In this document: positions 2 to 63,432 of the stretch, one piece after another
Layout: every line of letters begins with the position of its first letter
How positions within the stretch are numbered: position 1 is the first letter of the stretch
Source of the DNA: Chitinophagaceae bacterium IBVUCB2
Lineage (GTDB): Bacteria; Bacteroidota; Bacteroidia; Chitinophagales; Chitinophagaceae
Direction: 5' to 3'
Length of the DNA stretch: 64,000 nt
Assembly (NCBI GenBank): GCA_002127295.1
Contig: NFUV01000002.1
Span: 248,001-312,000 of the forward strand
Notes under the pieces: model-generated
Database searches by the model: none
The model's input: only the letters and a program-made list of their open reading frames with translations
What the model was told of the DNA's origin: nothing
Position numbers and translations under genes: made by a program

Positions 2-1921
2 ATATGGATCCATACAAATCTGCAGGGTCTTTCAAGAAGAGGCATGAACTATTGGGAAAGCAAAAACGGAAAAGATAAACGCCTGGTGTTTACATTGAAT
101 AATTCTCTCCAGGAAATTGATGCCATCACCGGAAAAACGATTACAAGTTTTGGTGATAGTGGCTATGTTGATATGCGGGTCGGACTTGACAGAGACCCTA
201 CATCTATCCGAAGAATGCAGGCAATGACACCGGGAGTTATTTATGATGACCTTATAATAATGGGTTCTGCCCCCGGCGAAGGATACTTTTCAGCACCGGG
301 TTATATAAGAGCATACAATATTGTTACTGGCAAATTGGAATGGACTTTTCACACCATACCTCACCCCGGTGAATTTGGATATGAGACATGGCCCAAAGAT
401 GCATACAAGTATGCAGGGGGTGTAAATGTTTGGAGTGAGATGTCGGTTGATGAGAAAAGAGGTATAGTGTTTTTACCATTGGGTTCTCCAACGTATGATT
501 ATTATGGTGCCGATCGCATAGGCAGTAATCTTTATGGTAATTCATTAGTTGCATTAGATGCCCGTACTGGTAAACACAAATGGCATTTTCAAACAGTACA
601 TCACGACATTTGGGATTATGATCTTTCTGCTGCTCCGCAATTATTAACCATAAACAAGGATGGAAAAAAAATCGATGCAGTAGCAGTTGCTACTAAACAT
701 GGTTTCGTTTTTGTTTTCAACCGCGATAACGGAGAACCAGTATTTCCTATTGAAGAAAAACCTTTTCCTGCGAGTGAAATGCCTGGCGAAAAAGCATGGG
801 TTACACAACCTATTCCATCATTACCGAGTTTTACCCGTCATGAAGTAACAAAGGAAACATTGAACCCATTTTTTCCTGATAGCACAAAACAAAAATGGTT
901 CAAAAGATTGGATGCAGCTAAATCCGGTCTATATGTCCCTCCTTCTGATAAATATGAGACCATTATGATGCCCGGCGCATTGGGCGGTGCAAACTATGGT
1001 AATACAGCGGCTGATCCCAAGAATGGTATACTGTATATTCTTACTCAGGAATATGCATCTGTCTACAAGCTGAGCAAAGTAGAACCTCCAAAAATTGACT
1101 TGTCGGAAAATGATTTGAAAAAAGTAAAAACATTTTATACTGCCAATTGTCAAAGTTGCCACGGTGATAATTTGCAAGGACTGAGCGGACCTTCCCTTGC
1201 AAATATTGGGCAGCGTATATTTTATGATGAATTTAAAAACATAGTGCAGAATGGCCGTGGCCGTATGCCGGCCATACCACATGTGGATGAGCAAACGATG
1301 AGTGCACTGTTTCGCTATATGGGCGGTATTCCCCGAAGTTTTCCGGGAAGAAGAAGTGATAATAAAAAGGCTACAGGTCCTATAGTTGATTCTGGTGGTG
1401 CTCAAATTAAATCAGATGTAAGTAAAGCAACTCCCATGTCAGATTATCCCGAAGGAGTAAGTCATCCTGAAAATCGTTATACAACTGATTACGGTATTGA
1501 ATGGATGGGATTAGCGGCACCACCCTGGTCATCTATTCTTGCTTACGATTTAAATAATGGAACTATTAAATGGAGGATGCCTGTTGGTGAAGACTCTGCT
1601 TATGTAAAAGGAGATAAATCCAAAGGAGCTCCGGCAGGTGTTTTAAGAAAAGGTATGGTCATTACGTCAACAGGAGTTGTTTTTGCAACAGCGAAGGGAG
1701 GTAAACTATATGCATTTGATGCAGCTAATGGAAATATATTATGGGAAACTACTTTAAGTAATGAAGTGCAGGGGCAGCCTACCATGTACACTTACAAGGG
1801 GAAACAATTCTTAGTAGTAAATGCCAGTGCAAACTTTACTCCGGATAGCTATAATCATTCTGTGAAGCCAGATGCATTGAAAAAGGGATATATCGTGTAT
1901 GCTCTTCCGGATCAGAAATAG
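2..1921 (+). CDS. PQQ-dependent sugar dehydrogenase with inserted cytochrome c domain (5' truncated)
   Basis: This is a quinoprotein dehydrogenase of the glucose dehydrogenase type, which oxidizes an aldose to its lactone in the periplasm and passes electrons to the respiratory chain. The frame stays open to the window edge, upstream of the Met codon at 44, so the N-terminus with its signal is missing. PQQ beta-propeller blades are visible before and after a cytochrome c domain. Counting from the Met at 44, the haem motif CQSCH is at residues 369-373 and a Met ligand lies in GRMP. A tryptophan-rich blade (WMGLAAPPWSS) follows the cytochrome, so the cytochrome sits inside the propeller sequence and not at its end. 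The cupin gene follows after 42 bases on the same strand. The fold and cofactor are well supported. The substrate is inferred from the neighbouring lactonase and gluconokinase. Confidence 0.88.
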   Translation: MWIHTNLQGLSRRGMNYWESKNGKDKRLVFTLNNSLQEIDAITGKTITSFGDSGYVDMRVGLDRDPTSIRRMQAMTPGVIYDDLIIMGSAPGEGYFSAPGYIRAYNIVTGKLEWTFHTIPHPGEFGYETWPKDAYKYAGGVNVWSEMSVDEKRGIVFLPLGSPTYDYYGADRIGSNLYGNSLVALDARTGKHKWHFQTVHHDIWDYDLSAAPQLLTINKDGKKIDAVAVATKHGFVFVFNRDNGEPVFPIEEKPFPASEMPGEKAWVTQPIPSLPSFTRHEVTKETLNPFFPDSTKQKWFKRLDAAKSGLYVPPSDKYETIMMPGALGGANYGNTAADPKNGILYILTQEYASVYKLSKVEPPKIDLSENDLKKVKTFYTANCQSCHGDNLQGLSGPSLANIGQRIFYDEFKNIVQNGRGRMPAIPHVDEQTMSALFRYMGGIPRSFPGRRSDNKKATGPIVDSGGAQIKSDVSKATPMSDYPEGVSHPENRYTTDYGIEWMGLAAPPWSSILAYDLNNGTIKWRMPVGEDSAYVKGDKSKGAPAGVLRKGMVITSTGVVFATAKGGKLYAFDAANGNILWETTLSNEVQGQPTMYTYKGKQFLVVNASANFTPDSYNHSVKPDALKKGYIVYALPDQK

Positions 1922-1963
1922 TTGTAAGTTTTTTTTTATGAATTACAAAACCCTCGAATTAAT

Positions 1964-3178
1964 ATGAAAAAATTATTTGCAATACTATTGATGCTTCAGT
2001 CAGTTGTTGCTACAACACAACCAACGAAGGATCGCATTATTCATAACGACCCTACTAAATACAAAACACTAACCGCTGTACATGCCGGAGCAGGTACAAT
2101 GGCATTCACACAATTGATTGGCCGAAATGAATTGGCCACAAACTTTCTTTACTTACATTCAGGAGTTATCAATGCTAAATCGGGAATCGGTCATCACTTT
2201 CATCATACCATTGAAGAAATGTATGTTCTCTTAAGTGGAGAAGCTGAATTTACCATCAACGGTAGAACGTCAAAAATAAAAGCCCCTGCATTGGTTCCCT
2301 GCAAAATGGGTGATTCACATGGCATTTATAATTCGTCTAATGAACCTCTACGCTGGCTCAACTTTGCAGTAAGTAAAACAAAAAGCAGGGCAGATAATTT
2401 TGATCTTTCTGATACCCGTGCAGGTGCAACGATAGATGCTGTTCCAGTATTCGTAGCTGGTCGCTTAGAGCTGAATAATCTTAAACCAGTGAAACAATCT
2501 ACAACAGGGAATAGTTTTTCTTATCGCCGTGTTTTTGGCCCAGATATTTTTAGTACAGATTGGAATCATGTAGATCACTTGCTGATAGCAGCAGATAGTA
2601 CGAGCGGCACACGACAATTGGAAGCCATCGAAGAAGTGTACTATGTAATAAAAGGAGCTGGTACGTTTTCAATTAATAATGAAAAAGTCAATGTTAAAGC
2701 AAATGATGCCTTCTATGGAAAATTGGGAGAAAAAATTACCTTGTCAGGTGATAGCAATGAAGGAATTGAGCTATTAGTGATAGGTGTTGCTCCTTCAAAA
2801 GAAAAAGCATTGGCCATATCAAAACCACTGCTAAAACCAAAAGCAATTGCACTACAAATGGATTTTATTGTTCCAAAAGAAAATGCAGCGGCTTTTGAAA
2901 AAATGTACTATTCTATTTACGTTCCTGCTATGACGGTGCAACAAGGATATCTCAGTTCAAAATTATTAAGGCTTTTTGCTGATGATATGGCTAAAACAAT
3001 ACAAGCAGAGCCAACTACTTACAATTATCAAATTCAGATATCATTTGATACAGAAGAAAACCGTAGAAAATGGGTGGCGAGTGATCAACATAAAATTGCA
3101 TGGCCCGCTGCATTCGGACTCGCAAAGGAATACAAGTGGCGAGGCTATGATGTAATGGGTGATGATGATCAGCGATAA
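1964..3178 (+). CDS. Secreted double-cupin protein with C-terminal ABM-like domain
   Basis: A 404-residue protein with a Sec-type N-terminus (about 20 residues). The first cupin barrel (about residues 45-150) keeps a metal site: HHFHHTIEEM supplies His and Glu, and a later His lies in DSHGIYN. The second barrel (about 165-290) has the cupin shape but lacks these histidines, so it is probably structural. The last 110 residues resemble the small alpha/beta-barrel domain of antibiotic-biosynthesis-monooxygenase-like proteins. It follows the PQQ dehydrogenase and meets the lactonase gene tail to tail. I infer a role in the same periplasmic sugar-acid route, perhaps as an isomerase or accessory enzyme, but no reaction can be named from the sequence. 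Confidence 0.72.
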   Translation: MKKLFAILLMLQSVVATTQPTKDRIIHNDPTKYKTLTAVHAGAGTMAFTQLIGRNELATNFLYLHSGVINAKSGIGHHFHHTIEEMYVLLSGEAEFTINGRTSKIKAPALVPCKMGDSHGIYNSSNEPLRWLNFAVSKTKSRADNFDLSDTRAGATIDAVPVFVAGRLELNNLKPVKQSTTGNSFSYRRVFGPDIFSTDWNHVDHLLIAADSTSGTRQLEAIEEVYYVIKGAGTFSINNEKVNVKANDAFYGKLGEKITLSGDSNEGIELLVIGVAPSKEKALAISKPLLKPKAIALQMDFIVPKENAAAFEKMYYSIYVPAMTVQQGYLSSKLLRLFADDMAKTIQAEPTTYNYQIQISFDTEENRRKWVASDQHKIAWPAAFGLAKEYKWRGYDVMGDDDQR

Positions 3179-3188
3179 AAATTATCGC
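3172..3188. repeat. 17-bp palindrome spanning two convergent stop codons
   Basis: GCGATAA and TTATCGC form perfect 7-bp arms around AAA. The arms contain the stop codons of the convergent cupin and lactonase genes, which are 3 bases apart. It could act as a compact bidirectional terminator or 3'-end stabilizer. There is no long T tract, so this is only a candidate. Confidence 0.4.
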
Positions 3189-4177
3189 ATCTTCACTCTT
3201 AATAAATATTTAGTAGCAGTCAGATAAATTGTTTTCCCATCTGGTGATAATGCACAATTGGCAACACTTGTTCCATTCACTTTTATCTTGCCGATCAATT
3301 TCCCTTCTTTAGTAAATATCCAGACGCCCCCGGGGCCTGTTGCAAATACATTTCCCTTGCTATCTATTTTCAAACCATCACAACCTCCGGCTCCTTTCTC
3401 GTTGCTCACATCAAAAAAAACTCTGGCGTTAGTTAAAGATCCATTTGAAGTAATATCATAAGCGTACCACCTTTTTTTCCGGTTATCTGAATTGGCGACC
3501 AACAATGTTTTTCCATCTGGGAAAATGGCAATACCATTTGGTGCTTCTATTGAATCTACTAGCAATGTTACTTTTCCTGCTTTGTCCATTTTATATACAC
3601 CTTGATAAGCAATTTCTCTTTTAGGATCTTTTGGACCTTTCTCAAAACCATAAGCAGGATCAGTAAAATACAGATTACCACTTGCAGTAAGAAAAAGATC
3701 GTTAGGACTGTTTAGTCTTTTGCCATCGTAATGTCCTGCAGCGGTAATAAATTTTGATTGCGGTGTATTGAGTGGAGCATCCATAATCGCAATTCTTCTA
3801 TCACCGTGCTGGCATACCAATAATTTTTCATCCTGTGAAAGAAGAAGTCCGTTTGGTCCCATAAAACCACCCCGCTTTGCGGTATCTGTGTAGCCAGCAG
3901 GTTTTACATAAACTTCTTTACCAGTAGCTTCTGTCCATTTATAAATTGTGTTGCCGGGAACATCCGACAATAAAAGCATTTGTTCTTTCTCAAGCCATAA
4001 CGGTCCTTCTGTAAACTGAAAGCCATCTGCAAGTATTTCAATCTTCGCATCTTTCTTTATAATTTTTGAAAGTTTTTTTGAAACAAATTCAATAGTGCCT
4101 GTTCCAGGTTTATTTTCTTGCGCATAGCCGGAAAGTAAGGAGGAGAGTAGAATAATGAGTAGCGTAATTTTCTTCAT
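3182..4177 (-). CDS. Exported SMP-30/gluconolactonase family lactonase
   Basis: A 331-residue six-bladed propeller of the SMP-30/gluconolactonase/luciferin-regenerating family, which opens aldonolactones to aldonates using a divalent metal. The first 19 or so residues are a Sec signal ending near GYAQ. The metal-site Glu is in DGFQFTEGPLW (E57). Further family motifs are NSPNDL, a propeller Asn in APNGIA, and CDGLKIDSKG near the C-terminus. It is the last gene of the - strand run that begins at the AraC gene, and a natural partner of the PQQ dehydrogenase, whose product is a lactone. It is clearly related to the lipoprotein lactonase at 57403-58425, less so to the one at 36907-37980. The family is secure; the exact lactone is not known. 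Confidence 0.88.
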   Translation of the reverse strand: MKKITLLIILLSSLLSGYAQENKPGTGTIEFVSKKLSKIIKKDAKIEILADGFQFTEGPLWLEKEQMLLLSDVPGNTIYKWTEATGKEVYVKPAGYTDTAKRGGFMGPNGLLLSQDEKLLVCQHGDRRIAIMDAPLNTPQSKFITAAGHYDGKRLNSPNDLFLTASGNLYFTDPAYGFEKGPKDPKREIAYQGVYKMDKAGKVTLLVDSIEAPNGIAIFPDGKTLLVANSDNRKKRWYAYDITSNGSLTNARVFFDVSNEKGAGGCDGLKIDSKGNVFATGPGGVWIFTKEGKLIGKIKVNGTSVANCALSPDGKTIYLTATKYLLRVKMR

Positions 4178-4289
4178 GGTGCAATGTTTTTCGTGAAAGT
4201 TGATTTCATGATTTCTTTTTGGGTTGCTAATTGCGCAAACAGTTATTTAATCCCGAATGATATTTTTATTTCCGTTAGAATAAATTTTA

Positions 4290-5216
4290 TTACCAGGTTC
4301 TTTTGCTCATCATCTTATCCAGTTCTGCACGGGTCATTGTGCCCAGCTCCGGATGTTTTTCCAGCCATTTTAAAAATGCAGATTTTATTTCATCTGTCCA
4401 CTGGCTGTCAATTTCACCAGTACTGTATTTACCAGCCCTTACCATTTCAAAACCAAATTTATCTTTACGGATAACGAATTCTGAAGTACTCACTACTTGT
4501 TCTGCTAAATGTGCGGGTACAAAAAGCACTCCTTCCTTTTGTGCAATCACCAGATCTCCCGGAAGTACAATTGCATTTCCTATCCGGATCGGCGTATTCA
4601 ATCCCATCAATATCATTTCTTCTGTAAAAGAAGGGTGAAAATCACGAACAAAAGCATTGAAGCCCTTCAGCATTTTTAGTTCCTGTAAATCTCTGGCGGC
4701 GCCATTAAATACAACGCCGTTACCAGACTTGCTGTAAATAGAATTGGCTAAAGTTGCACCCATTATAGAGCCACCGCTGATTTTTCCAAATGCATCAGCA
4801 ATATAAATATCACCTTTTGTAAGAATATCAATGGGCCAGGAGTTGGTATTACCTTTTCTTCCTTGTGTAAATCCCCTGGCTTTAATATTTTTCTCTATAT
4901 CGGGACGACTTGGCAAATACATAGCTGTTAATGCCCGGCCTGTCATGGGTGTATCGTTTACTGTTTTCCAATTGCCGTCAAACTGATTCAGATACCCTTC
5001 ATTTTTTAATACCGTCCATGCATCATCAATCATAATATACTTTGCCCGTTCAAGAAGGCTGTCGCCAATTTTTGGTCTTCCATCCTGAAAACGTTCTCCT
5101 TTCCATTCTGAAGTAAGAAATATCAATTCTTCTTTAGAAATGGTTTGTGAAAATACGGGTAGTCGAAAAATGATAGAGCTTAACAAGAACAACAGAATAA
5201 AAAATTTTTTTTTCAT
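4290..5216 (-). CDS. Exported RraA-fold protein (putative 2-keto acid aldolase), copy 1
   Basis: A 308-residue RraA-like protein with a Sec signal (about residues 1-23). It shares the N-terminal block EWKGERFxDGRPK with the paralogue at 6774-7757. The RraA/HMG-aldolase core is present, with GDIYIADAFG and the Arg-Asp pair R175-D176 in NGAARD. These correspond to the pyruvate-enolate-stabilizing Arg and metal-site Asp of class II HMG/CHA aldolases. Such proteins are often misnamed dimethylmenaquinone methyltransferase or RNase E inhibitor. Neither name fits an exported protein next to a sugar-acid dehydratase. I infer cleavage of a 2-keto-3-deoxy acid to pyruvate and an aldehyde, or a related decarboxylation, in the periplasm. 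Compared with copy 2, the Asp in YDGALRD is Asn here, so the two copies may differ in activity. Confidence 0.75.
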   Translation of the reverse strand: MKKKFFILLFLLSSIIFRLPVFSQTISKEELIFLTSEWKGERFQDGRPKIGDSLLERAKYIMIDDAWTVLKNEGYLNQFDGNWKTVNDTPMTGRALTAMYLPSRPDIEKNIKARGFTQGRKGNTNSWPIDILTKGDIYIADAFGKISGGSIMGATLANSIYSKSGNGVVFNGAARDLQELKMLKGFNAFVRDFHPSFTEEMILMGLNTPIRIGNAIVLPGDLVIAQKEGVLFVPAHLAEQVVSTSEFVIRKDKFGFEMVRAGKYSTGEIDSQWTDEIKSAFLKWLEKHPELGTMTRAELDKMMSKRTW

Positions 5217-5420
5217 GTATGATCAGTATAAGATGATTGTATTAAAAGATTAAAGTCAACAAAAAAGTAAACGAATGTCATAGCTTCCATTACTTTTGCT
5301 GGGTGCTCTTACAAAAGCTATCCAACCTGTTAGTCTTTATGATCTGAGTTTTACTAATACCTTACTTCTATAATTGAAATTACTTTTTGTACGAATTCAA
5401 ACTGATTTGCCAATTACTAA

Positions 5421-6698
5421 TTATTCAAAGAAAGGCACACCAGGTGTTGCATACTTCTTCATGGCCTCCATATTAAGGTCAACGCCAATACCCGGTTTCT
5501 CAGATACTTTAATGAAACTGTCTTTTACCCAATTCTCTTCATCAAATGTTACAATTTCTCTGTACATTTTATTGGTATGGAAATAAGATTGCCATTCCAT
5601 GATATGGAAGTTTGGCACTGTTACACAAACATGGGCACAAGCCATAGCTCCGAGTAATGAAGCCACCATGTGCGGAGCGAAAGGAACATAATAAAGGTTT
5701 GCAAGGTTAGCAATTCGTTGGCCTTCTCCCAAACCGCCGCATTTTTGCAGATCAGGCATTATAAAATCCACCCCGTTATCTAGTAATTGCTTAAAACCAT
5801 GACCAAGGTATACGTTTTCACCTGCTGCGATGGGTGTACTGGTTTCCTCACAAATTGTTTTGAAGGCATCAAAGTTCTCTGCTGGAATTGGTTCTTCTAA
5901 CCATGTAAGGTTTAATGGTTCTACTTTTTTAGCAATTGTTTGTGCAGTTACATGATCGTAGCGTCCGTGCATATCTACGCAAAGATCAATTTTGGGACCT
6001 ACTGCTTCACGTACAGCAGCAAGCTGGTTATACATTCTGGATATTTCACCAGGGCTCGCTGTCCAATTCCATCGATCATATTTATCTGGGTCTGCAACAA
6101 AATCAAGGTCAAATTTCAATGCATTGAAGTTCCAGTTTTTAATAGCTTCTTTAGCTGCATTTGCAAAATCATCTGGAGATGGGAACGTTGAACGGTAAAG
6201 TGCCGTATCGCAATACACTCTTACTTTATCCCGAAATTTGCCACCCAATAATTGATAAACAGGAAGACCCAATGCTTTACCAGTAAGATCCCATAATGCA
6301 GTTTCAATAGCAGATAAAACAGCAACATACATTCCTGATTGTCCACCTCCAAAATGTCCACCTCTGCGCATCTGTTCAAATATCTGATGCATGTTAAATG
6401 GACTACGACCCTTTAATTGTCTTCCCAATCTTTGCACCAGGTGATAGGTTCCACCAATCGCATCTACTCCTTCACCAAGACCGTAAATATCCTGGTCGGA
6501 AAAAATTTTGACAAATAAGCTGCCGCCAATATATCCGCATTTTACATCGGTGATCTTTATGTTGGAGGGTGGTGAAACCATTGGTGTTCTTTCTACAGCT
6601 TCCTCTAATCCTCTGCCAAAGGTTGCCATTGGAGCAAGTGGCGCCAAAGCAGCTGCTAAGGCAGCTTTCGTTATGAATGATCTTCTTGAGTTTGACAT
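5421..6698 (-). CDS. Tat-exported enolase-superfamily acid-sugar dehydratase (GalD-like)
   Basis: A 425-residue protein of the mandelate racemase/muconate lactonizing subgroup. The N-terminus SRRSFITKAALAAALAP is a twin-arginine signal, so the folded Mg2+ enzyme would be exported. The N-terminal capping domain spans about residues 45-160, followed by the barrel. Visible active-site elements are D242 and H244 (VDMHGR), the Glu pair at 268-269 (WLEEP), E294 (AAGEN), H343 (FAPH) and a late Glu in MEWQ. The DxHGR form and catalytic His resemble galactonate dehydratase. Members dehydrate aldonates to 2-keto-3-deoxy acids. It lies between the two exported RraA genes, 75 bases downstream of copy 2 and 204 bases upstream of copy 1. 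The substrate is unknown; gluconate, galactonate or a pentonate are all possible. Confidence 0.85.
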   Translation of the reverse strand: MSNSRRSFITKAALAAALAPLAPMATFGRGLEEAVERTPMVSPPSNIKITDVKCGYIGGSLFVKIFSDQDIYGLGEGVDAIGGTYHLVQRLGRQLKGRSPFNMHQIFEQMRRGGHFGGGQSGMYVAVLSAIETALWDLTGKALGLPVYQLLGGKFRDKVRVYCDTALYRSTFPSPDDFANAAKEAIKNWNFNALKFDLDFVADPDKYDRWNWTASPGEISRMYNQLAAVREAVGPKIDLCVDMHGRYDHVTAQTIAKKVEPLNLTWLEEPIPAENFDAFKTICEETSTPIAAGENVYLGHGFKQLLDNGVDFIMPDLQKCGGLGEGQRIANLANLYYVPFAPHMVASLLGAMACAHVCVTVPNFHIMEWQSYFHTNKMYREIVTFDEENWVKDSFIKVSEKPGIGVDLNMEAMKKYATPGVPFFE

Positions 6699-6773
6699 TG
6701 TAGTAATTTTTTTATTAAAGAATGAATTAATGATAGAGGCTGGAAGGTTGCGGAGCTTTTAAGTTTTTCGTCG

Positions 6774-7757
6774 CTAAAAACTATTAGTTTGCGGTGCACC
6801 ACTTTCTCTTTGTTTTATAATTTCCAATACCTCTTCTCTGCCAACAGGCAATTTGTTTACATTGTCTTTGAGCCATTGCGTAAAATCTTTTTGAATATTA
6901 TCGGCCCATCTTGCATCAATTTGGCCGGCTGTATATTTTCTTTCCCTTATACGGAGTTGTCCGAACATATCTTCTAAACGAACAAGCTCTGAACTTTTTA
7001 CTACTCGTTCTGCTAAATGCGGGGGGATGAAAATAACAACACCCAATTTACCTAACACAACATCACCCGGCATTACTGTTACTGTGCGGATGCGGGTAGG
7101 GCGGTTAATTCCTACAATCATGGTAGTTAAGTCCCTGTTTTGTCCACCTCCGGGATTATGATAAGAAGGATCATAGCTGCTAAAAAAAGAAGTAAAGCCA
7201 CCGAATTCTTTTAATCCTTCCACATCTCTTAACGCACCATCATACACAATTCCATTTCCTGTTTTTGTATAAATGGCAGTACCTACTCTATCACCAATGG
7301 TGGGTCCATTCTTTTTAGCACCAAATTGATCGGCCACATATACATCACCTTTTGATAACTGTTCTACTGCCCAAACATTTTGTGAAAGCCTTCCTTCTTT
7401 CTTTCCCATAGAGTCAATGGCCTTCCATACATCGGGGCGACCTGGCATAAAGGTGGTGGTATAGGCACGGCCCACCAATACACTATCAGGATTGATGATT
7501 TGCCCCCAACCATCTGCAATCTGATACCGGTAACCTGCACCAATTAAAATTGCCCATGCTTCCTCAATTGTAACAGGTTTCATTCTGCGAATAATGTCAT
7601 CCGGCACTTTCGGTCTTCCATCAGGAAAACGTTCGCCTTTCCATTCTGGAGTTAAAGAAATTAATTCTTCCTTGCTTATTTGCACACTTTGGGCATTTGG
7701 TTGCAACCCAAATAAGATTATTGCAATGGTGGATAATAAAAACTTCACTTTTGACAT
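6774..7757 (-). CDS. Exported RraA-fold protein (putative 2-keto acid aldolase), copy 2
   Basis: A 327-residue paralogue of the protein at 4290-5216, also with a Sec signal (about residues 1-23) and the shared LTPEWKGERFPDGRPK block. The RraA core has GDVYVADQFG and YDGALRD with R177-D178, and a C-terminal VMPGDVVLGKLGVV strand-turn motif. The Asp in YDG is kept here, unlike in copy 1. Family knowledge: RraA-fold enzymes with the Arg-Asp pair are divalent-metal aldolases or decarboxylases of 2-keto acids. Context: it is 34 bases downstream of the BASS transporter and 75 bases upstream of the exported dehydratase, so a periplasmic dehydration and cleavage pair is a reasonable inference. Confidence 0.77.
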   Translation of the reverse strand: MSKVKFLLSTIAIILFGLQPNAQSVQISKEELISLTPEWKGERFPDGRPKVPDDIIRRMKPVTIEEAWAILIGAGYRYQIADGWGQIINPDSVLVGRAYTTTFMPGRPDVWKAIDSMGKKEGRLSQNVWAVEQLSKGDVYVADQFGAKKNGPTIGDRVGTAIYTKTGNGIVYDGALRDVEGLKEFGGFTSFFSSYDPSYHNPGGGQNRDLTTMIVGINRPTRIRTVTVMPGDVVLGKLGVVIFIPPHLAERVVKSSELVRLEDMFGQLRIRERKYTAGQIDARWADNIQKDFTQWLKDNVNKLPVGREEVLEIIKQRESGAPQTNSF

Positions 7758-7791
7758 AACAAATAAATTTTAATATTCCAGTTAGTATTAA

Positions 7792-8913
7792 TTAAGGATG
7801 TGATATTTTATTTTTTCTTTTTCTCTGTTGGGCATCCGGATCTTTGTTATGCCACCAGTTGGCAAGTATTGATCCGCTTAGATTCATCATCACTGCGAAT
7901 ACTGCGGGTGCCAAACCTGCAAGTGCCACACCCATTTTGATAGCTAATCCTGCTGCCATGCCAGCATTCTGCATACCGACCTCAAGGGCAATAGTTCTTG
8001 AATCTTTTTCAGGGAATTTAAGTAGTCGGGCCGACCAATAGCCGAGAAAAAATCCGCTAAGATTATGTATAGCAGTCGCTACTATTAAAAGCAATCCTAC
8101 TTGTTTCAACGCTTCACTTTTATCGGCACTTATCACAACTAAGATTACAGCAATGCCAATCATAGATACATAAGGCATTGCCTTATCAAGCCATTTGAAT
8201 TTTCCACGAATGACATAATGAAATATAAGACCGGCAACAATTGGGATAATAACAATCTCTGTAATATGCCATACCATATCCATGATATTAACTTCTATAA
8301 GTTTTCCTCCCAATAACTTCATGAGCAAGGGAGTAAAGATGGGAGCTACTAATGTAGATACTGCAGTTACTGTAACGGAGAGTGCCAAATTAGCTTTTGC
8401 AAGAAAACACATTACATTAGAGGCAAGGCCGCTTGGGCAGCAACCTACCAGAATAATTCCCGCAGCTACTTCATCCGGAAAATTAAATAGCTTGGCAACG
8501 GTAAAACCAACCAGCGGCATAATAGTATAGTGGCAAACGATCCCAATAAATACTGCTTTAGGCATACGAAGTACATCGGCAAAATCCTTAAGACTTAATT
8601 CTGTTCCCATGCCAAACATGATTACCTGCATGGCAGGAATTATCAACGCAGTCGTTTTATATTGGCCCAAGGTTTTAAAATAATGAGGATAATACATCGC
8701 AAGACTCACTACTGCCAGTATAACGACGGTAAAAACAAATCCTTTGAGTAAGGGATGGCCTTTGAAAGCAATGGCAAGACTAAAAAAACACAACGCCAGG
8801 AACCAACCGGCCCAATGATGGAGTTGCTGAAAAGTTGTAAAAGCAAAAGCCAGAAAGAAAATCAGTGCCGCGAAATAAAAGATAGTATAAAACGATTTCT
8901 TTAGAACTGCCAT
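7792..8913 (-). CDS. BASS/SBF family Na+ symporter (candidate 2-keto acid importer)
   Basis: A 373-residue membrane protein of the bile acid:Na+ symporter family. Two extra hydrophobic segments (about residues 10-75) precede the usual repeat-based core. The core shows the family signatures GCCPSGLASNV, the first crossover and sodium site, and EVGMQNAGMAAGLA, the second. Bacterial and plastid members carry pyruvate, ketopantoate or other organic anions as well as bile acids. It sits between the gluconokinase and the exported RraA and dehydratase genes. This suggests uptake of the 2-keto acid or aldonate made in the periplasm. The C-terminus is short and basic. The family call is firm; the substrate is inferred from context only. 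Confidence 0.85.
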   Translation of the reverse strand: MAVLKKSFYTIFYFAALIFFLAFAFTTFQQLHHWAGWFLALCFFSLAIAFKGHPLLKGFVFTVVILAVVSLAMYYPHYFKTLGQYKTTALIIPAMQVIMFGMGTELSLKDFADVLRMPKAVFIGIVCHYTIMPLVGFTVAKLFNFPDEVAAGIILVGCCPSGLASNVMCFLAKANLALSVTVTAVSTLVAPIFTPLLMKLLGGKLIEVNIMDMVWHITEIVIIPIVAGLIFHYVIRGKFKWLDKAMPYVSMIGIAVILVVISADKSEALKQVGLLLIVATAIHNLSGFFLGYWSARLLKFPEKDSRTIALEVGMQNAGMAAGLAIKMGVALAGLAPAVFAVMMNLSGSILANWWHNKDPDAQQRKRKNKISHP

Positions 8914-8973
8914 AAGTCAAATTAGTTTTAAGGAGTTAGTCAAATAAGAATATTGTTGATTGATTTTTTAAGA

Positions 8974-8989
8974 TGCTGTATCAACAGCA
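8974..8989. promoter_or_regulatory. Inverted repeat upstream of the BASS transporter gene
   Basis: TGCTGT and ACAGCA flank a 4-base loop in the 141-base gap between the kinase and transporter genes. On the - strand it is not followed by a T run, so it is less likely a terminator than an operator or an RNA processing hairpin. This is a candidate only. Confidence 0.25.
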
Positions 8990-9054
8990 AAAAAAACACA
9001 TCGTATCTCTCTTAGAATACAGCTTACTTTTCATACTTCAATCGGCTCTAATAG

Positions 9055-10578
9055 TTATTGCAGTTTGACAACATTTTCAAAATCATCTTTCAACTTATTA
9101 CTAAGCTTTTCAAAAATTTCAAAATGCTTCATATAAATACCATGAAGATTTTTTTTAGGAAAATATTGCTCAGGTAGAACAATGCTTTTTGCTGCTTCAT
9201 CAAGATTATGGAAGATGCCCATTTCAGTAGCACTTAGTAAATAAGCACCAATACCTACACTATAATTATGCTGACTGATGCTGACAGGCTTATTAAAAAT
9301 ATCAGCAATGATCTGTGCACAGAGTGGAATAGATGCAAAGCTTCCGTTAATGGATAAGCTATTGAACTTACAATGTTCTTCCAATGTTTTTCCAATACTG
9401 TATATCTCAAATAAAATACCTTCAATTATAGCTCTGATAAAATGTTGTCGCTCATGTTTTATATTAATTCCGAAGTAAACTCCTCTTGCATTGGCGTCCC
9501 ATATTGGTGCCCTTTCTCCCAATAAGTAAGGAAGGAAAATAAGACCATCAGAACCCGCAGAAACTTTAGCTGCTACTGCAATTAGTTCTTTCATTGTGTA
9601 GTCCAGGTCAAACTGATCCTTAAAATCACCAAACTGTTTGGCAAACCATTCGAAAATAACACCACCACTGTTTGTTGGTCCGCCGGATACATAACAATTT
9701 TCGGTAAGCAGATAATTGAAAAAACGTTGCTTCTTATCATTCAGCACTTTTTTCCCAATAACTCTTACAGCACCACTATCTTCTATGGTAATGGTAGCTT
9801 TGCGTCCATCCCATACACCAGCACCAAGGGTTGCCAAACAACCATCACTTGAACCCACAATGATCTTTGTATCCTCATTAATTCCCAATGAATTTTGATA
9901 CGCTTTTTTCAACTTGCCTGCTGATGCAAAAATGGGTACCAGTTCTGCAAGCTTGTCTGTATTAATACCTGCATACAACAATGCTTCAGGTTCCCATTTT
10001 ACTTTATGAATGTTTAGTAACCCTGTAGCAGATGCCAGGCTATAATCGATCAAATATTCACCAGTAAGCTGGTGAATGATGTACGTCTTTAATTGAATGA
10101 ACTTGCTCGCTAGCTTAAATCTTTCTTTATCGTTGTTTTTAAACCAGGCTATTTTAAATAATGGCGACATTGGATGCATGGGAGTTCCTGTAGCTGTATA
10201 AATGATTTTGCTGGCAGGCGAATCTTTCAATTTTTGTGCTTCTTTTTTTGCACGGTTATCTGCCCATATTACCGCATTGCCCAACGGAATTCCACTCTTA
10301 TCGATTGCCAGCACACTATGCATGGAAGCACTGAAACAAATACTCGCCACTTTTATTTTTTGCGGATGAATATGTTCATTCAGCAAATTCTTCAATACAT
10401 ATAACATGGTTATAAAAATCTGTTCCGGATCTTGTTCGCTATAATCTGGCTGAGAATGAAATGTAGGATATGACCCTTTCATGGAGGCAATGGTATTACC
10501 TGCAAGATCAAAAGCAACTACTCTAACAGCATTTGTTCCAATCTCAATAGTAATAATGCAAGTTTTTTTGGCTGGCAT
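9055..10578 (-). CDS. gntK: Gluconokinase (FGGY family)
   Basis: A 507-residue FGGY carbohydrate kinase without a signal peptide, acting in the cytoplasm. The N-terminal domain begins with the phosphate loop IEIGTNAVRVVAF. The stretches SQPDYSEQDPEQIF, GTPMHPMSPLFKIAW and SLASATGLLNIH are typical of the Bacillus gluconate kinase branch and not of xylulokinase or glycerol kinase. The C-terminal domain has LLGERAPIWDANARGVYFG, a branch hallmark. The family reaction is ATP-dependent phosphorylation of gluconate to 6-phosphogluconate. It begins 11 bases after the AraC gene, likely in one transcript, and would use gluconate formed by the dehydrogenase-lactonase pair and taken up by a carrier such as GntP. 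Another aldonate remains possible. Confidence 0.8.
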   Translation of the reverse strand: MPAKKTCIITIEIGTNAVRVVAFDLAGNTIASMKGSYPTFHSQPDYSEQDPEQIFITMLYVLKNLLNEHIHPQKIKVASICFSASMHSVLAIDKSGIPLGNAVIWADNRAKKEAQKLKDSPASKIIYTATGTPMHPMSPLFKIAWFKNNDKERFKLASKFIQLKTYIIHQLTGEYLIDYSLASATGLLNIHKVKWEPEALLYAGINTDKLAELVPIFASAGKLKKAYQNSLGINEDTKIIVGSSDGCLATLGAGVWDGRKATITIEDSGAVRVIGKKVLNDKKQRFFNYLLTENCYVSGGPTNSGGVIFEWFAKQFGDFKDQFDLDYTMKELIAVAAKVSAGSDGLIFLPYLLGERAPIWDANARGVYFGINIKHERQHFIRAIIEGILFEIYSIGKTLEEHCKFNSLSINGSFASIPLCAQIIADIFNKPVSISQHNYSVGIGAYLLSATEMGIFHNLDEAAKSIVLPEQYFPKKNLHGIYMKHFEIFEKLSNKLKDDFENVVKLQ

Positions 10579-10589
10579 AGAAAATGTTT

Positions 10590-11474
10590 TTAAGTATTAT
10601 TCTTTCTAAACTGGCTTGGTGTGTAGCCTGTCAGTTTTTTAAATGTTGTTGCAAAATGCTGTGACGAATAAAATCCCGTATCCAGAGCAATATCTGTTAC
10701 ATTAGCATTTGGCTTTTTTAATAATTTAATTGCTTCTGAAATGCGGATATTAATTAAATAACTCATTGGAGAAAACCCGGTATAGCTTTTTACTTTATCG
10801 CTGAATGCAGTAGTTCCCAAACCACCCAATGCTGCCATTTCTTCCACTGTCCAGTGATGAGATAAATCTTTACGTAACGCCTCCTCCAGATTCAAAAAAG
10901 TTTGTGGAAAGTCCCGCTGAGAAATGTTTTGTTGTGTAAGTTTTCGGGTAATTAAGATCAGCAATTCGTCAAGCAAATGATTTACCCTTGTAACATACCC
11001 TATTTGCTGGTTGAATAATTCATTGCGCAACATCGAAAAAACGGAGCCTGCATCCTGCAATCTTGAAACAACAGGCACCTTGTTGAAAAACAAAATTTTT
11101 TTGATAGAACTAAATTCCGGTGAGGATATGCTACTCCATTTACTAAGAGAGTTTTTATCTTCTTTGCCCTGCAAATTTAAATGCAGGTTCAACCAGTAAA
11201 GAGAGCCAATTTCCAGATAACCTTTCTCAGCATATAGTTCCTGTCCCGGTAGAATAATCGCAAGATCGGCAGGATACAAAGTGTGGTGTTGATTATTGAT
11301 AACCCAATCAAATTTTCCGTCGAGAATATAATAAAAACGCAGGTACTCTGAGCAGGAGTCATTAAACGAGTTCAACCTTATTGAACTATTCTTCGTAAGG
11401 GCAAATTCATTTATTTGTCCAAACTGAAATAACTCAGGAGAATTATCATGTCGTAATAAAAATTGGCTCATCAA
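10590..11474 (-). CDS. AraC-family transcriptional regulator
   Basis: A 294-residue regulator. The N-terminal half is cupin-like and probably senses a sugar (residues about 20-110, with HTLYPADLAIILPG). The last 100 residues hold two helix-turn-helix units: WTVEEMAALGGLGTTAFSDKV, and VTDIALDTGFYSSQHFATTF followed by GYTPSQFRK. It is divergent from the SusC gene with a 188-base gap and is followed after 11 bases by the gluconokinase gene. It is the only dedicated regulator near the polysaccharide locus; no hybrid two-component sensor, ECF sigma or anti-sigma gene is present in the window. I infer control of the sugar-acid operon and perhaps of susC. Confidence 0.88.
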   Translation of the reverse strand: MMSQFLLRHDNSPELFQFGQINEFALTKNSSIRLNSFNDSCSEYLRFYYILDGKFDWVINNQHHTLYPADLAIILPGQELYAEKGYLEIGSLYWLNLHLNLQGKEDKNSLSKWSSISSPEFSSIKKILFFNKVPVVSRLQDAGSVFSMLRNELFNQQIGYVTRVNHLLDELLILITRKLTQQNISQRDFPQTFLNLEEALRKDLSHHWTVEEMAALGGLGTTAFSDKVKSYTGFSPMSYLINIRISEAIKLLKKPNANVTDIALDTGFYSSQHFATTFKKLTGYTPSQFRKNNT

Positions 11475-11662: not shown

Positions 11663-14600
11663 ATGAAGAAAAAAATGTTGCTGGCATTTTCGCCAAGTTA
11701 TTCCCGTTTTTGTTTTCTGTTTATTTCATTCTTTCTTTTTGCTGTCGGAGCATATGCTCAAACAGTAAAAGGAACGGTAATAGATAATGAAAACAAACCT
11801 GTTGCCGGAGCAACAGTTACAGTAAAAGGAACTTCAAAAGCCACCTCCACAAATTCTACCGGAGAGTTTAGCATTAATGCCTCAGGCAATGATATCATTG
11901 TTGTAAGCTTTATTGGGTTTTCGACAATTGAAGTGCCAGTGAGTGGCAGAACTAATATTTCTGTTAGTATGTTTAGAGGTGACGGAACTGATCTTAATGA
12001 AGTAGTAATAACTGCTCTCGGTATTAGAAAGGAAGCAAAAAAACTGGGGTATTCCACTACAACAGTTAATCCAGAGGACCTAACTAAGAATAGGACCACC
12101 AACGTAGGTGAAGCCCTTGAAGGAAGAGTAGCAGGCTTAAATATTACACCTCCTGCTGCGGGTGCAGGTGCCAGTAACCAAATTCGTATACGAGGGCAAG
12201 TTGGTTTTTCCGGAGCAGATAATTCACCACTCTTAGTAATTAACGGCCTTCCCTTAGACCAGGGAGCCAGGAATGCTGAAGGTGCTGGTCAGCAACGGGA
12301 TCGTGGTGATAATTTGGCAAACATTAACCCGGATGATATTGAAAGTATGACTGTGCTGAAAGGTGCAGCAGCCGCCGCAATTTATGGGTCAAGAGCAGCT
12401 CGTGGTGCGATAATTATTACCACTAAATCAGGCCAAAAAAATCAGGGCATCGGAGTTGATTTTTCTACCAGTTATACTACTTCGAATGCGTTAAATTTTA
12501 TGGATGAGATCGTACAAACAGAATATGGTCAGGGGCAAGGCGGTGCTAAGTTTACAACTGCCGCACAAATTCAAGGTAATGGTCAGTTTGGATGGGGTGC
12601 AAAATTGGATGGTTTACCCACTATTAATTATGATGGGGTTATGAGACCATACTCTGCTAATCCTCACCAGCTTTTCGACTTCTTGCAAACCGGAACAAAT
12701 TTAACCAATACACTTGGCCTCTCAGGTGGTGGAGCAAATGGAAGTTTCAGAGCTTCTATATCTACCACCGATGCTAAAGGAATTGTACCAAGCAATGAAT
12801 ATAAAAGAAGAATTTTCAACGTAGGTATCAATCAAACAATTGCTAAGCAACTTAAATTACTCGTAAACGTAAACTATGCAGATGAGGATTATATTAACCC
12901 TCCGCAAATTGGTACACAGGGTGATGGCGCTGTAAATTTCTTTACCAGGATGCCAATTTCTGTTCCTCTTTCAGCGTACAGGGATCATGCAAAGGATCCT
13001 GCTACAAACGCAGAATGGAGAACCAACGGATTTCAAGGTACAGTTAACAACCCTTACTTCGCTCTGCAAAACGGACAAAAATATAAAGAAGACAGAAATC
13101 GTCTTCTTGGAACGGCTACATTACGTTATGATATTACAAAATGGCTATTTGCGCAGGGTAGGTTCAACTATGATCGTAGCGATAATTTTGCAGAATGGTA
13201 TACGCTGAATGGTACAGGCGCCAATACCGTAGTAGCCACTACTACTCCCACCGTTACTTACAGGGGTGGTTACAATCTAAACCAAACCACAACGACTGAT
13301 ATAAATGCAGATTTCCTTATTGGTACCAGTAATCAATTTGGAAAGATTTCTGTTGATGCCAGTTTTGGCGGAAATACATTGAGATCTGAGTGGAAAAATA
13401 TCGTACAGACTTCAACGAACTTTACTGTTCCTAATCTTTACTCTTATAGAAATGGTACCGTAAAAGGGGCAGGTGATGGCTTTAATTATAGCCAGCAACG
13501 TGTCAATTCCCTCTATGGTGTAGTAGAATTAGGATACAATGGACTTATATTCCTGAATGCTACAGGTAGAAATGATTGGTTTTCTATTCTAGACCCATCT
13601 AATAACAGTAAATTTTATTCTTCCATATCTGGCAGTTTTGTTTTCTCAGAGCTATTAAAGAATTGGGAATGGCTTTCTTTTGGAAAACTAAGAGCATCCT
13701 GGGCGCAAGTAGGTAGTGTAGCTTTAGTAAACCCGTATGATGGTGTGCTTACGTATGGTCTTGGTGCAAACCTATTTAATGGTCAAACTACAGCAAGTGT
13801 TAATGGCACCAATGCCCCTAATCCATTGTTGCAGCCATTTACTGTAACGGAAAAAGAAATAGGAATTGAGTTGAGGTTGTTTAAAAACAAATTGCTGTTT
13901 GACATTGCAGCATTCGACAAAGTAACTACAGAACAAATAATAGATGTAAATCTTTCCACTGCATCCGGCTATGCTACTTCAAAAGAAAATGAGGCTTCTT
14001 TAAAGAACAGTGGTTTGGAAACATTGGTGGAATATAAAGCCGTACAAAACAAAAATTTTAGCTGGACAACTTCCTGGAACAATGCCTTTCTTAAAACAAA
14101 AGTGCTGGATGTAGGTACGCCAAGTGGTACAAGAATGCTGCTATATTTTAACGGCACAGGTAATGAGTTTCTCGGAGAAATAAGGTATACAGAAGGTTTA
14201 GGAATGAACCAACTTTATACGAGAACATATAGGAGAAATGCAAAAGGCGAAATTCTAGTAGGTAATAATGGTTTCCCGCTACCATCAAATACAAACCCGG
14301 CCGGTATTACAGGTGGTTTTAACCCAATTGGAAGTTCTATCCCTAAGTTCACCGGTGGATGGAATAATACAATTACATATAAGAATCTGAGTCTTGGTAT
14401 TCATATTGATTACAAGTTTGGTGGTAAAGTAATGTCTGCTACGCTTTTGAATATGACAAGACAAGGACATAGCAAATTGTCATTGCAGGGCCGTGAAGGT
14501 GGTTATATATTCCCAGGGGTTTATGAAAGTTCAGGATTGCCCAATACTACTGTGATTACGGTTGCAGGTAATGGTTTGCAGACTCTATGGACAAATCACA

Positions 14601-14890
14601 GAAACGACCAGATAGGCGATCCATTTGTATTCAAATCTGATTTTGTAAAACTTAGAAACATTTCTTTAGCGTATAACTTAACGAATATTATAAACAAGGT
14701 TCCCGTACTCAATTTCGTAAAGGGTTTAACATTGTCTGCATCCTGCCGCAATGTTGCAATACTTTATAAAGATTTACCGGGTCTGGATCCTGAAGCTATC
14801 CAATCATCTGGCGATATCAGAGCTGGGTATGAGAATTCTTCATTACCTACTACACGCAATTTCAATCTTACTTTAAATGTTAAATTCTAA
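11663..14890 (+). CDS. susC: SusC/RagA-family TonB-dependent outer-membrane transporter
   Basis: A 1075-residue outer-membrane protein that imports oligosaccharides with its SusD partner, powered by TonB. After a signal peptide (to about residue 33) comes a carboxypeptidase-regulatory-like domain (about 35-110, QTVKGTVIDNENKPVAGATV). Next is the plug (about 120-260) with RIRGQ, PLLVINGLPL, and the SusC-type run GAAAAAIYGSRAARGAIIITTK. The beta barrel fills the rest and ends in a terminal Phe (LTLNVKF), as expected for outer-membrane barrels. The length fits the family. The SusD gene follows after 4 bases. The load is inferred to be xylan oligosaccharides from the downstream hydrolases. Confidence 0.95.
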   Translation: MKKKMLLAFSPSYSRFCFLFISFFLFAVGAYAQTVKGTVIDNENKPVAGATVTVKGTSKATSTNSTGEFSINASGNDIIVVSFIGFSTIEVPVSGRTNISVSMFRGDGTDLNEVVITALGIRKEAKKLGYSTTTVNPEDLTKNRTTNVGEALEGRVAGLNITPPAAGAGASNQIRIRGQVGFSGADNSPLLVINGLPLDQGARNAEGAGQQRDRGDNLANINPDDIESMTVLKGAAAAAIYGSRAARGAIIITTKSGQKNQGIGVDFSTSYTTSNALNFMDEIVQTEYGQGQGGAKFTTAAQIQGNGQFGWGAKLDGLPTINYDGVMRPYSANPHQLFDFLQTGTNLTNTLGLSGGGANGSFRASISTTDAKGIVPSNEYKRRIFNVGINQTIAKQLKLLVNVNYADEDYINPPQIGTQGDGAVNFFTRMPISVPLSAYRDHAKDPATNAEWRTNGFQGTVNNPYFALQNGQKYKEDRNRLLGTATLRYDITKWLFAQGRFNYDRSDNFAEWYTLNGTGANTVVATTTPTVTYRGGYNLNQTTTTDINADFLIGTSNQFGKISVDASFGGNTLRSEWKNIVQTSTNFTVPNLYSYRNGTVKGAGDGFNYSQQRVNSLYGVVELGYNGLIFLNATGRNDWFSILDPSNNSKFYSSISGSFVFSELLKNWEWLSFGKLRASWAQVGSVALVNPYDGVLTYGLGANLFNGQTTASVNGTNAPNPLLQPFTVTEKEIGIELRLFKNKLLFDIAAFDKVTTEQIIDVNLSTASGYATSKENEASLKNSGLETLVEYKAVQNKNFSWTTSWNNAFLKTKVLDVGTPSGTRMLLYFNGTGNEFLGEIRYTEGLGMNQLYTRTYRRNAKGEILVGNNGFPLPSNTNPAGITGGFNPIGSSIPKFTGGWNNTITYKNLSLGIHIDYKFGGKVMSATLLNMTRQGHSKLSLQGREGGYIFPGVYESSGLPNTTVITVAGNGLQTLWTNHRNDQIGDPFVFKSDFVKLRNISLAYNLTNIINKVPVLNFVKGLTLSASCRNVAILYKDLPGLDPEAIQSSGDIRAGYENSSLPTTRNFNLTLNVKF

Positions 14891-14894
14891 CGAC

Positions 14895-55338: not shown

Positions 55339-55365
55339 GTTTATTTATTAATGTGCTAGTTAATT

Positions 55366-56541: not shown

Positions 56542-56563
56542 GCCGCTGAATTTTATCAATTTT

Positions 56564-57400: not shown

Positions 57401-57402
57401 TA

Positions 57403-58425: not shown

Positions 58426-58448
58426 GTTGACTATTTATGCTTGTTTAA

Positions 58449-60203: not shown

Positions 60204-60218
60204 TATAAATGGAATTAT

Positions 60219-61346: not shown

Positions 61347-61355
61347 AACATCAAT

Positions 61356-63428: not shown

Positions 63429-63432
63429 TTTT

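Follow-up and report, generated by a model that had tools for sequence, protein, structure and literature searches.

Is part of sugar-acid catabolism in Bacteroidota carried out outside the inner membrane? The question is raised by a 64,000-nucleotide stretch of Chitinophagaceae bacterium IBVUCB2 (GenBank assembly GCA_002127295.1, contig NFUV01000002.1, positions 248,001 to 312,000; hereafter the window), which encodes an enolase-superfamily sugar-acid dehydratase (Dht1) between two RraA-fold proteins (RraAa and RraAb), all three with export-type N-termini. A sequence-only reading of the window had proposed a six-gene periplasmic pathway in which a sugar is oxidized, its lactone opened, the aldonate dehydrated and the 2-keto-3-deoxy acid cleaved before import. 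The genes lie where that reading had placed them and belong to the families it had named. Comparison with related loci confirms that Dht1 and an RraA-fold partner form a conserved pair in Bacteroidota with the N-termini of exported proteins. We favour, with moderate confidence, a periplasmic two-enzyme module in which Dht1 would dehydrate an aldonate and RraAb would act on the resulting 2-keto-3-deoxy acid.

A conserved dehydratase-RraA pair with export-type N-termini

Three genes are central to the question:
4290-5216, minus strand: RraAa, predicted Sec-exported RraA-fold protein (motif A-X20-R-D-X2-E)
5421-6698, minus strand: Dht1, predicted Tat-exported enolase-superfamily (MR/MLE) sugar-acid dehydratase (D242, H244, E268, E294, D316 and H343 conserved)
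6774-7757, minus strand: RraAb, predicted Sec-exported RraA-fold protein, constant neighbour of Dht1 (motif D-X20-R-D)

Related loci were collected from public genomes with an RraA profile, and the set consists of the 80 best-scoring of at least 589 relatives (L and G numbers denote our loci and genomes). Dht1 and RraAb share a strand run in all 67 loci that are at least 12 kb long and have a called RraAb, loci shorter than 12 kb being excluded from this count. A same-strand dehydratase directly adjoins 74 of 79 RraAb genes; the misses are three contig ends, one intervening PanS gene and one interrupted gene. When 295 genomes of the class were searched separately with RraAb (at least 60% identity) and Dht1 (at least 65% identity), the two were found in the identical six genomes and were adjacent in all six, the next dehydratase match reaching only 36%. 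The loci span Chitinophagaceae, Mucilaginibacter, Spirosoma, Runella, Algoriphagus, Cyclobacterium, Pontibacter, Pricia, Allomuricauda and Lewinella, among others. At the limits used, neither RraAb nor Dht1, IlvD or PanS was matched in G254, the sole same-genus genome of the sample, which marks the module as accessory.

Some loci have peculiarities of their own. A locus passed over by the open reading frame (ORF) caller, and thus outside the RraAb counts (L093), agrees with the others: a single run contains RraAb, Dht1 of Tat type, PanS and RraAa. In G014, RraAb appears as two matches with one stop codon (L027:10117-11045), an interrupted copy beside an intact-looking Dht1. An ORF of G267 (L021:12053-12715) joins an RraAa-type N-terminal half to an apparent enolase-superfamily dehydratase end; this remnant of a deletion between neighbours was excluded from one alignment. 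A contig labelled Williamsia, an actinobacterium (L029), carries a typical Bacteroidota SusCD-IlvD-RraAb-Dht1 locus and is probably a mis-binned contig of a metagenome-assembled genome.

The N-terminus of Dht1, MSNSRRSFITKAALAAALAP, contains the twin-arginine motif SRRSFITKAA followed by a hydrophobic stretch, as the sequence-only reading had noticed, and TatC is encoded in the source genome. Throughout the 80 loci, an RRx[FLWIVM] motif lies within the first 75 residues of 111 of 112 dehydratase ORFs, the sole exception being a fragment of an interrupted gene, compared with 40 of 673 other ORFs of at least 200 residues and 2 of 67 cytoplasmic-type neighbours. RraAa, RraAb and the SMP-30 lactonase possess the Sec signals formerly ascribed to them; the signal ends with a small residue in both RraA proteins, and in all three it is followed by Q. 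An N-terminal Q is reported to be exposed on most signal peptidase I substrates of the phylum (PMC5837995). Export labels were assigned with a home-made classifier, which is positive in 0 of 67 cytoplasmic-type and 95 of 103 exported-type neighbours. It gives a signal or N-terminal hydrophobic label to 111 of 116 RraA ORFs (102 Sec, 6 lipoprotein-like and 3 of transmembrane-helix type); of the five without a label, two are truncated and two have a signal that is visible by eye and was missed. A strict small-x-small-Q pattern occurs in 104 of 116 RraA ORFs against 11 of 67 cytoplasmic-type controls; the corresponding values for a looser pattern are 113 of 116 RraA ORFs, 20 of 67 cytoplasmic-type controls and 41 of 66 controls of exported type.

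These export signals set RraAa and RraAb apart from the RNase E regulator RraA, which we take to be cytoplasmic and to act on RNase E and the degradosome; on the NCBIfam RraA equivalog model RraAa scores 25.6 bits against a cut-off of 136, and there is no listed match for RraAb. RraAb has relatives on plasmids of other phyla (280 records, 24-29% identity). Four alphaproteobacterial RraA proteins among them start where the Bacteroidota extension ends, three receiving no label and one a label of transmembrane-helix type. One of their two MR/MLE neighbours shows a loose RRxI match that lacks a hydrophobic stretch. The export calls are predictions of our own classifier, and the signals could in principle have been misread on enzymes that are cytoplasmic. 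We regard this as highly improbable, given the clean motif, label and Q-rule controls and the late start of the alphaproteobacterial relatives, and a cytoplasmic location of Dht1 and the RraA proteins was rejected on the basis of these controls.

RraAa is usually partnered with Dht2, a distant Tat dehydratase 28-32% identical to Dht1. Among the 67 loci, RraAa and Dht2 occur together in 28, RraAa alone in 3 and Dht2 alone in none, and both dehydratase-RraA pairs plus a transporter gene lie within one run in 24. Dht2 retains the metal ligands and the His-Asp dyad, with H244 replaced in 31 of 32 covering sequences (Tyr in 24, Phe in 7). In these residue counts, as in those of adjacency and of the twin-arginine motif, one Dht1-type ORF cut at a contig end (L054_2) is tallied in the Dht2 class. 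The source genome has RraAa and just two MR/MLE proteins over the cut-off besides Dht1, of which the one examined has no Tat signal. Two pairs with one carrier suggest that two acids of different stereochemistry are led to a single carrier.

Catalytic residues, fold and the proposed reaction

Both RraAa and RraAb exceed the Pfam PF03737 cut-off and are the only matches to this family in the 4.0 Mb, three-contig source genome. The R-D motif is kept in 118 of 118 RraA sequences: D-X20-R-D in 106, including the RraAb of the window, A/S-X20-R-D-X2-E in 8, including its RraAa, and S without the E in 4. We take the class II aldolase motif to be D-X20-R-D or G-X20-R-D-X2-E/D, with RraAa of the window having A at the G position. 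The R-D aligns with that of HMG/CHA aldolase (PDB 3noj), whose Arg-123 is reported to stabilise the pyruvate enolate; most homologues of that enzyme are said to have one or the other of two motifs that serve metal binding and catalysis (PMC5065237). The structure alignment was given 47 RraA sequences: the 2 of the window, 41 of the 116 called in the 80 loci and 4 others. The predicted model of RraAb (pLDDT 90.5) adopts the RraA fold, with a TM-score by target length of 0.89 to 5x15.

Two further matches of the RraA proteins were recorded. The top Foldseek match of RraAb is PDB 5ir2, titled 'novel cellulases from microbes associated with the gut ecosystem' despite its RraA fold, which may be a misnomer or a pointer to another secreted RraA-type protein. 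NCBIfam NF009399 (PRK12764), a family of 501 positions named after FAH, is matched by RraA in its C-terminal part; natural FAH-RraA fusions thus seem to exist and would form another link of RraA to keto-acid pathways.

In Dht1, D242, H244, E268 and E294 are present in 80 of 80 sequences and D316 and H343 in 79 of 79 covering sequences. They presumably comprise three acidic metal ligands and a His-Asp dyad, the set expected of a galactonate-dehydratase-type enzyme. The best dehydratase model for Dht1 is that of D-galactonate dehydratase (PRK14017 equivalog), on which it scores 239.2 bits against a cut-off of 311.

Gene content, linkage, N-termini and catalytic residues are visible in the sequences themselves and the fold is predicted; from these we infer a substrate, an order of steps, a retro-aldol chemistry and an importer cargo. 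Aldonate would come from SusC/SusD uptake and, in part of the genomes, also from oxidation in the periplasm with a pyrroloquinoline quinone (PQQ) or Gfo/Idh dehydrogenase, followed by the SMP-30 lactonase. Dht1, exported folded via Tat, would convert periplasmic aldonate to the 2-keto-3-deoxy acid; its likeliest substrate is a pentonate, for instance L-arabinonate or D-xylonate, or else a hexonate homologous to these. RraAb, exported via Sec, would then apply the metal and Arg-Asp machinery of RraA-type class II pyruvate lyases to this acid. Retro-aldol cleavage by RraA to pyruvate is plausible, and the products would most likely be pyruvate and a short aldehyde, which is glycolaldehyde if the acid is a pentonate. 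RraAa would be a second such enzyme, elsewhere usually with its own Dht2, and perhaps serves acids that differ in stereochemistry. An acid would cross the inner membrane on a PanS-like or GntP-like carrier, and a cytoplasmic route of IlvD, FAH and aldehyde dehydrogenase (ALDH) would deal with acid imported intact. We also put forward, tentatively and as something short of probable, a pathway outside the cytoplasm that extends through the phylum: 2-keto-3-deoxy acids would be both formed and split beyond the inner membrane, a separate pair of Tat dehydratase and Sec RraA lyase would serve each of several stereoisomeric aldonates, and all would yield pyruvate for one PanS-like carrier.

The RraA step could also be a dehydration. 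In such a periplasmic variant of the Weimberg pathway, RraAb and RraAa would convert 2-keto-3-deoxy-pentonate to alpha-ketoglutaric semialdehyde (alpha-KGSA), which PanS would import and a cytoplasmic ALDH oxidize. FlDet of Flavobacterium sp. UMI-01, of the RraA family, is reported to form alpha-KGSA from 2-keto-3-deoxy-D-glucarate (PMC8563752); the best NCBIfam model of the ALDH of the window is alpha-KGSA dehydrogenase, at a score far below the cut-off, and ALDH relatives occur in 12 of the 80 loci. The FlDet substrate, however, is a C6 diacid that loses a carboxyl group, a loss for which a pentonate has no need, and the window has a separate FAH-family candidate for the second dehydration; moreover, FlDet is likened here by description, its sequence lying outside the comparison set. 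This variant appears rather unlikely to us.

Partner genes and the probable sugar acid served

The other genes around the pair are as follows:
1-1921 (in the window from base 2), plus strand: PQQ-propeller dehydrogenase with an inserted cytochrome c domain, optional partner; the full ORF of 747 residues is L003:13678-15921, with its 5' end upstream of the window
1964-3178, plus strand: double-cupin protein, predicted exported, companion of the PQQ dehydrogenase, which it follows in all 4 of the 80 loci having that enzyme
3182-4177, minus strand: SMP-30/gluconolactonase-type lactonase, predicted exported (family match and Sec signal)
7792-8913, minus strand: PanS-like transporter of the BASS family that probably imports a 2-keto acid or a sugar acid (family match)
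9055-10578, minus strand: FGGY carbohydrate kinase, gluconokinase-like, below cut-off (family match)
10590-11474, minus strand: AraC-family regulator adjoining the FGGY kinase (family match)

In the reading direction of the minus strand, the run comprises the AraC regulator, FGGY kinase, PanS-like transporter, RraAb, Dht1, RraAa and SMP-30 lactonase, separated by gaps of 11-204 bases. The PQQ dehydrogenase and double-cupin genes converge on this run and lie outside it. A scan for promoters and terminators gave a number of sites not above that of shuffled sequence. Neighbour counts out of 80 cover about 10 kb and are lower bounds, some loci being shorter. PanS is present in 40 of the 80 loci and FGGY in 15; 4 have an orthologue of the PQQ dehydrogenase, with the cupin gene after it, next to the pair, and 2 have an SMP-30 of at least 50% identity. 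The six-gene set was rejected as a conserved unit on these counts; what stood of the expected co-occurrence is the Dht1-RraAb core, linked in every one of the 67 loci and six genomes. The PQQ dehydrogenase with its cupin and the SMP-30 lactonase are optional partners of the pair.

The oxidative first step has further peculiarities. In G215 (L026), about 28 kb separate the PQQ dehydrogenase and cupin genes from RraAb, and RraAa and SMP-30 are nearby. On the membrane PQQ glucose dehydrogenase model TIGR03074 (PQQ_membr_DH), the part of the dehydrogenase inside the window, which alone was scored, reaches 291.3 against a cut-off of 832.65. Its N-terminus, ending in LSCN, looks lipoprotein-like by eye, whereas the classifier assigns a Sec signal of the signal peptidase I type. 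PQQ synthesis was not found in the source genome, where the pqqE match is far below the cut-off, as it is in all 14 control genomes, and where pqqC has no match, the search controls being equally silent; the first step may therefore depend on PQQ from elsewhere or be inactive. Just upstream of the window, the PQQ dehydrogenase is preceded by a row of four exported ORFs that resemble esterases (L003:8053-13576; named from sequence), and ORFs of similar look precede its orthologue in L026.

The BASS transporter and sugar kinase named in the sequence-only reading do belong to the minus-strand run, but their more specific names are weaker: the transporter meets the Pfam SBF cut-off (144.9 against 24.3) and stays below that of the PanS model NF047939 (249.6 against 400), while the kinase scores 438.1 on gluconokinase TIGR01314 against a cut-off of 648.55. 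In the genome sample, PanS is found in five of the six genomes with the pair and in 4 of 289 others. GntP takes the place of PanS in L033 and L035. This substitution, together with PanS genomes that have IlvD without Dht1 (below), suggests that the carrier may transport not pyruvate but an aldonate or a 2-keto-3-deoxy acid.

Divergently from the AraC gene runs a second set of genes, which also includes an esterase, GH3, GH31, GH95 and three GH43 glycoside hydrolases:
11663-14890 and 14877-16487, plus strand: putative SusC/SusD-like outer-membrane uptake pair, named from its sequence (39 and 33 of the 80 loci have relatives)
16721-18307, plus strand: ALDH, no signal (best NCBIfam model alpha-KGSA dehydrogenase, 128 bits against a cut-off of 770)
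18342-20057, plus strand: IlvD/Edd sugar-acid dehydratase, no signal, L-arabinonate dehydratase-like (830.1 bits against a cut-off of 882)
20998-21831, plus strand: FAH-family protein, no signal, candidate 2-keto-3-deoxy-pentonate dehydratase (family match)

The window has candidate genes for each step of the Weimberg and Dahms pathways: an aldonate dehydratase, a 2-keto-3-deoxy-pentonate dehydratase or aldolase, and a semialdehyde dehydrogenase. An orthologue of the L-arabinonate-dehydratase-like, cytoplasmic IlvD is encoded in six of the six genomes with the pair and in 5 of 289 others. IlvD orthologues of 63-86% identity are also present in all 11 further genomes checked, a non-random choice in which 8 had FAH and/or ALDH without a nearby IlvD and L040, L044 and L088 served as positives; the 295-genome test is unbiased. 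That the exported dehydratase replaces the cytoplasmic one was rejected on the finding in these 11 genomes. In three of the four alphaproteobacterial plasmid loci opened, from eight matches listed, RraA lies within one gene of araD (L-arabinonate dehydratase), with MR/MLE adjacent in two. A Rhizobium L-arabinonate dehydratase is described as favouring 4S acids (D-fuconate, D-galactonate and L-arabinonate) over D-xylonate and D-gluconate (PMC11316719). In L027, the pair has genes for L-arabinose isomerase, ribulokinase and an epimerase at a distance of a few kb. L042, L048 and L082 hold ORFs that look isomerase-like from their sequence. Pentonates are pointed to by IlvD, FAH and ALDH in the window and by araD near the alphaproteobacterial RraA, and we read the pair, on this gene context, as part of a partly exported, non-phosphorylative pentonate route of Weimberg or Dahms type. 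The sequence-only reading is supported as to the sugar-acid setting, the functional pairing and the acid importer, and its Entner-Doudoroff-like bypass is too general in view of this pentonate context.

Several points weigh against the periplasmic two-enzyme module. Because an RraA query was used to collect the 80 loci and the best-scoring were kept, the presence of RraA in all of them is built in, and they contain a surplus of close relatives; the Fisher tests take genomes and loci as independent, with kinship uncorrected, so their significance is overstated. One genome (G278) has an RraAa-type protein and no Dht1-type match, and three of the four PanS genomes lacking the pair (G278, G095 and G127) have IlvD without Dht1. 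HMG/CHA aldolase 3noj, the fifth-ranked Foldseek match to the RraAb model, has a poor global superposition (root-mean-square deviation 11, TM-score 0.69 by target length, 16% identity). Since the source genome encodes XylA and AraA, growth on pentoses as such does not depend on the module. In L040 and L082 the run of the pair includes FAH and ALDH, and in L041 and L052 only FAH, an arrangement suggesting that 2-keto-3-deoxy acid enters the cytoplasm intact. Near the pair, mostly in Spirosoma loci, are a major facilitator superfamily (MFS) carrier (7), UxuA (7) and GH67 (6), families assigned from one representative each, which could mean a uronate- or hexonate-type substrate.

The last two points bear on distinct alternatives. 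According to the first, PanS or GntP imports the Dht1 product intact, FAH and ALDH finish its conversion in the cytoplasm, and RraA is auxiliary, for example with a tautomerase-, lactone- or oxaloacetate-type function. GntP belongs to a gluconate-type permease family, and its presence in the place of PanS agrees with this. Nevertheless, RraAb is adjacent in all six Dht1 genomes, its R-D motif is invariant, and the IlvD of all 11 genomes checked explains FAH and ALDH without any periplasmic 2-keto-3-deoxy acid, and we consider intact import quite improbable. The second alternative, whose mechanism overlaps that of the two-enzyme module, holds that a different acid is served (hexonate, uronate-derived or aromatic-derived) and that the pentose setting is incidental. 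Besides the MFS, UxuA and GH67 neighbours, it draws on galactonate dehydratase as the best dehydratase model and on a Dyadobacter genome paper that places an RraA family protein under benzoate degradation, as an annotation only (PMC12584681). IlvD in every pair genome, the arabinose genes of L027 and araD near the alphaproteobacterial relatives speak against it, and we hold it to be unlikely. The two-enzyme module, acting most probably on a pentonate, remains our preferred account.

A second acid-sugar cluster lies towards the far end of the window:
54028-60203, minus strand: GntP permease, GH10, FAH (73% identical to the first), lipoprotein-type SMP-30 and IlvD (71% identical to the first)
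60219-61346, minus strand: Gfo/Idh/MocA oxidoreductase that has a twin-arginine motif (RRKF) and may be a periplasmic sugar dehydrogenase of this cluster

From its genes, the cluster looks like a system that oxidizes in the periplasm, imports through GntP and continues on a route of Weimberg type in the cytoplasm. The stretch 54028-63999 also holds a glucuronoyl-esterase/deacetylase protein and the C-terminus of an arabinofuranosidase.

Comparison with known systems

If the two-enzyme module is correct, dehydration and probably aldol cleavage of sugar acids would be periplasmic in Bacteroidota of several families, and the reading of a large set of exported RraA-fold proteins would be corrected. 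It would also explain aldonate use that cytoplasm-based pathway predictors miss, and give directly testable pentonate-converting enzymes. Among the matches listed in the open-access literature, none was recognised as describing the export of an RraA enzyme or of an aldonate dehydratase, or an Entner-Doudoroff-type route in the periplasm.

In the non-phosphorylative L-arabinose and D-xylose pathways, as described, the aldonate is converted to 2-keto-3-deoxy-pentonate, on which an aldolase or a dehydratase then acts (PMC6336799, PMC7374468). The Weimberg (route II) and Dahms (route I) pathways share this aldonate dehydration and second step with the proposed route, and relatives of IlvD, FAH and ALDH are present in the window; in contrast, it is here an enolase-superfamily dehydratase, not IlvD, and an RraA-fold enzyme that carry export signals. 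The araD-RraA-MR/MLE clusters on Rhizobium and Sulfitobacter plasmids are alike in having an RraA relative near an aldonate dehydratase, in some cases with ALDH and KDG-dehydratase-type genes. They differ in lacking an N-terminal extension with a Bacteroidota-type Tat or Sec signal and in their identity of 24-29%. HMG/CHA aldolase (3noj) and E. coli RraA share the fold and the R-D motif with the exported RraA; to our knowledge, the known members of both groups are cytoplasmic. FlDet, a KDGR dehydratase/decarboxylase, offers a setting similar to that of RraAb, being a Bacteroidota RraA-family enzyme that acts on a 2-keto-3-deoxy sugar acid, but it is about 27 kDa in size, its substrate derives from alginate, and the words 'periplasm' and 'signal peptide' are absent from the main text of the paper (PMC8563752). 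The LacABC/DUF1080 3-keto-glycoside pathway likewise places sugar chemistry in the periplasm and has been proposed for Bacteroidetes too (PMC9007349); it consists of glycoside oxidation and hydrolysis, in contrast to the C-C cleavage and aldonate dehydration considered here. The chemistry itself is already known in the cytoplasm.

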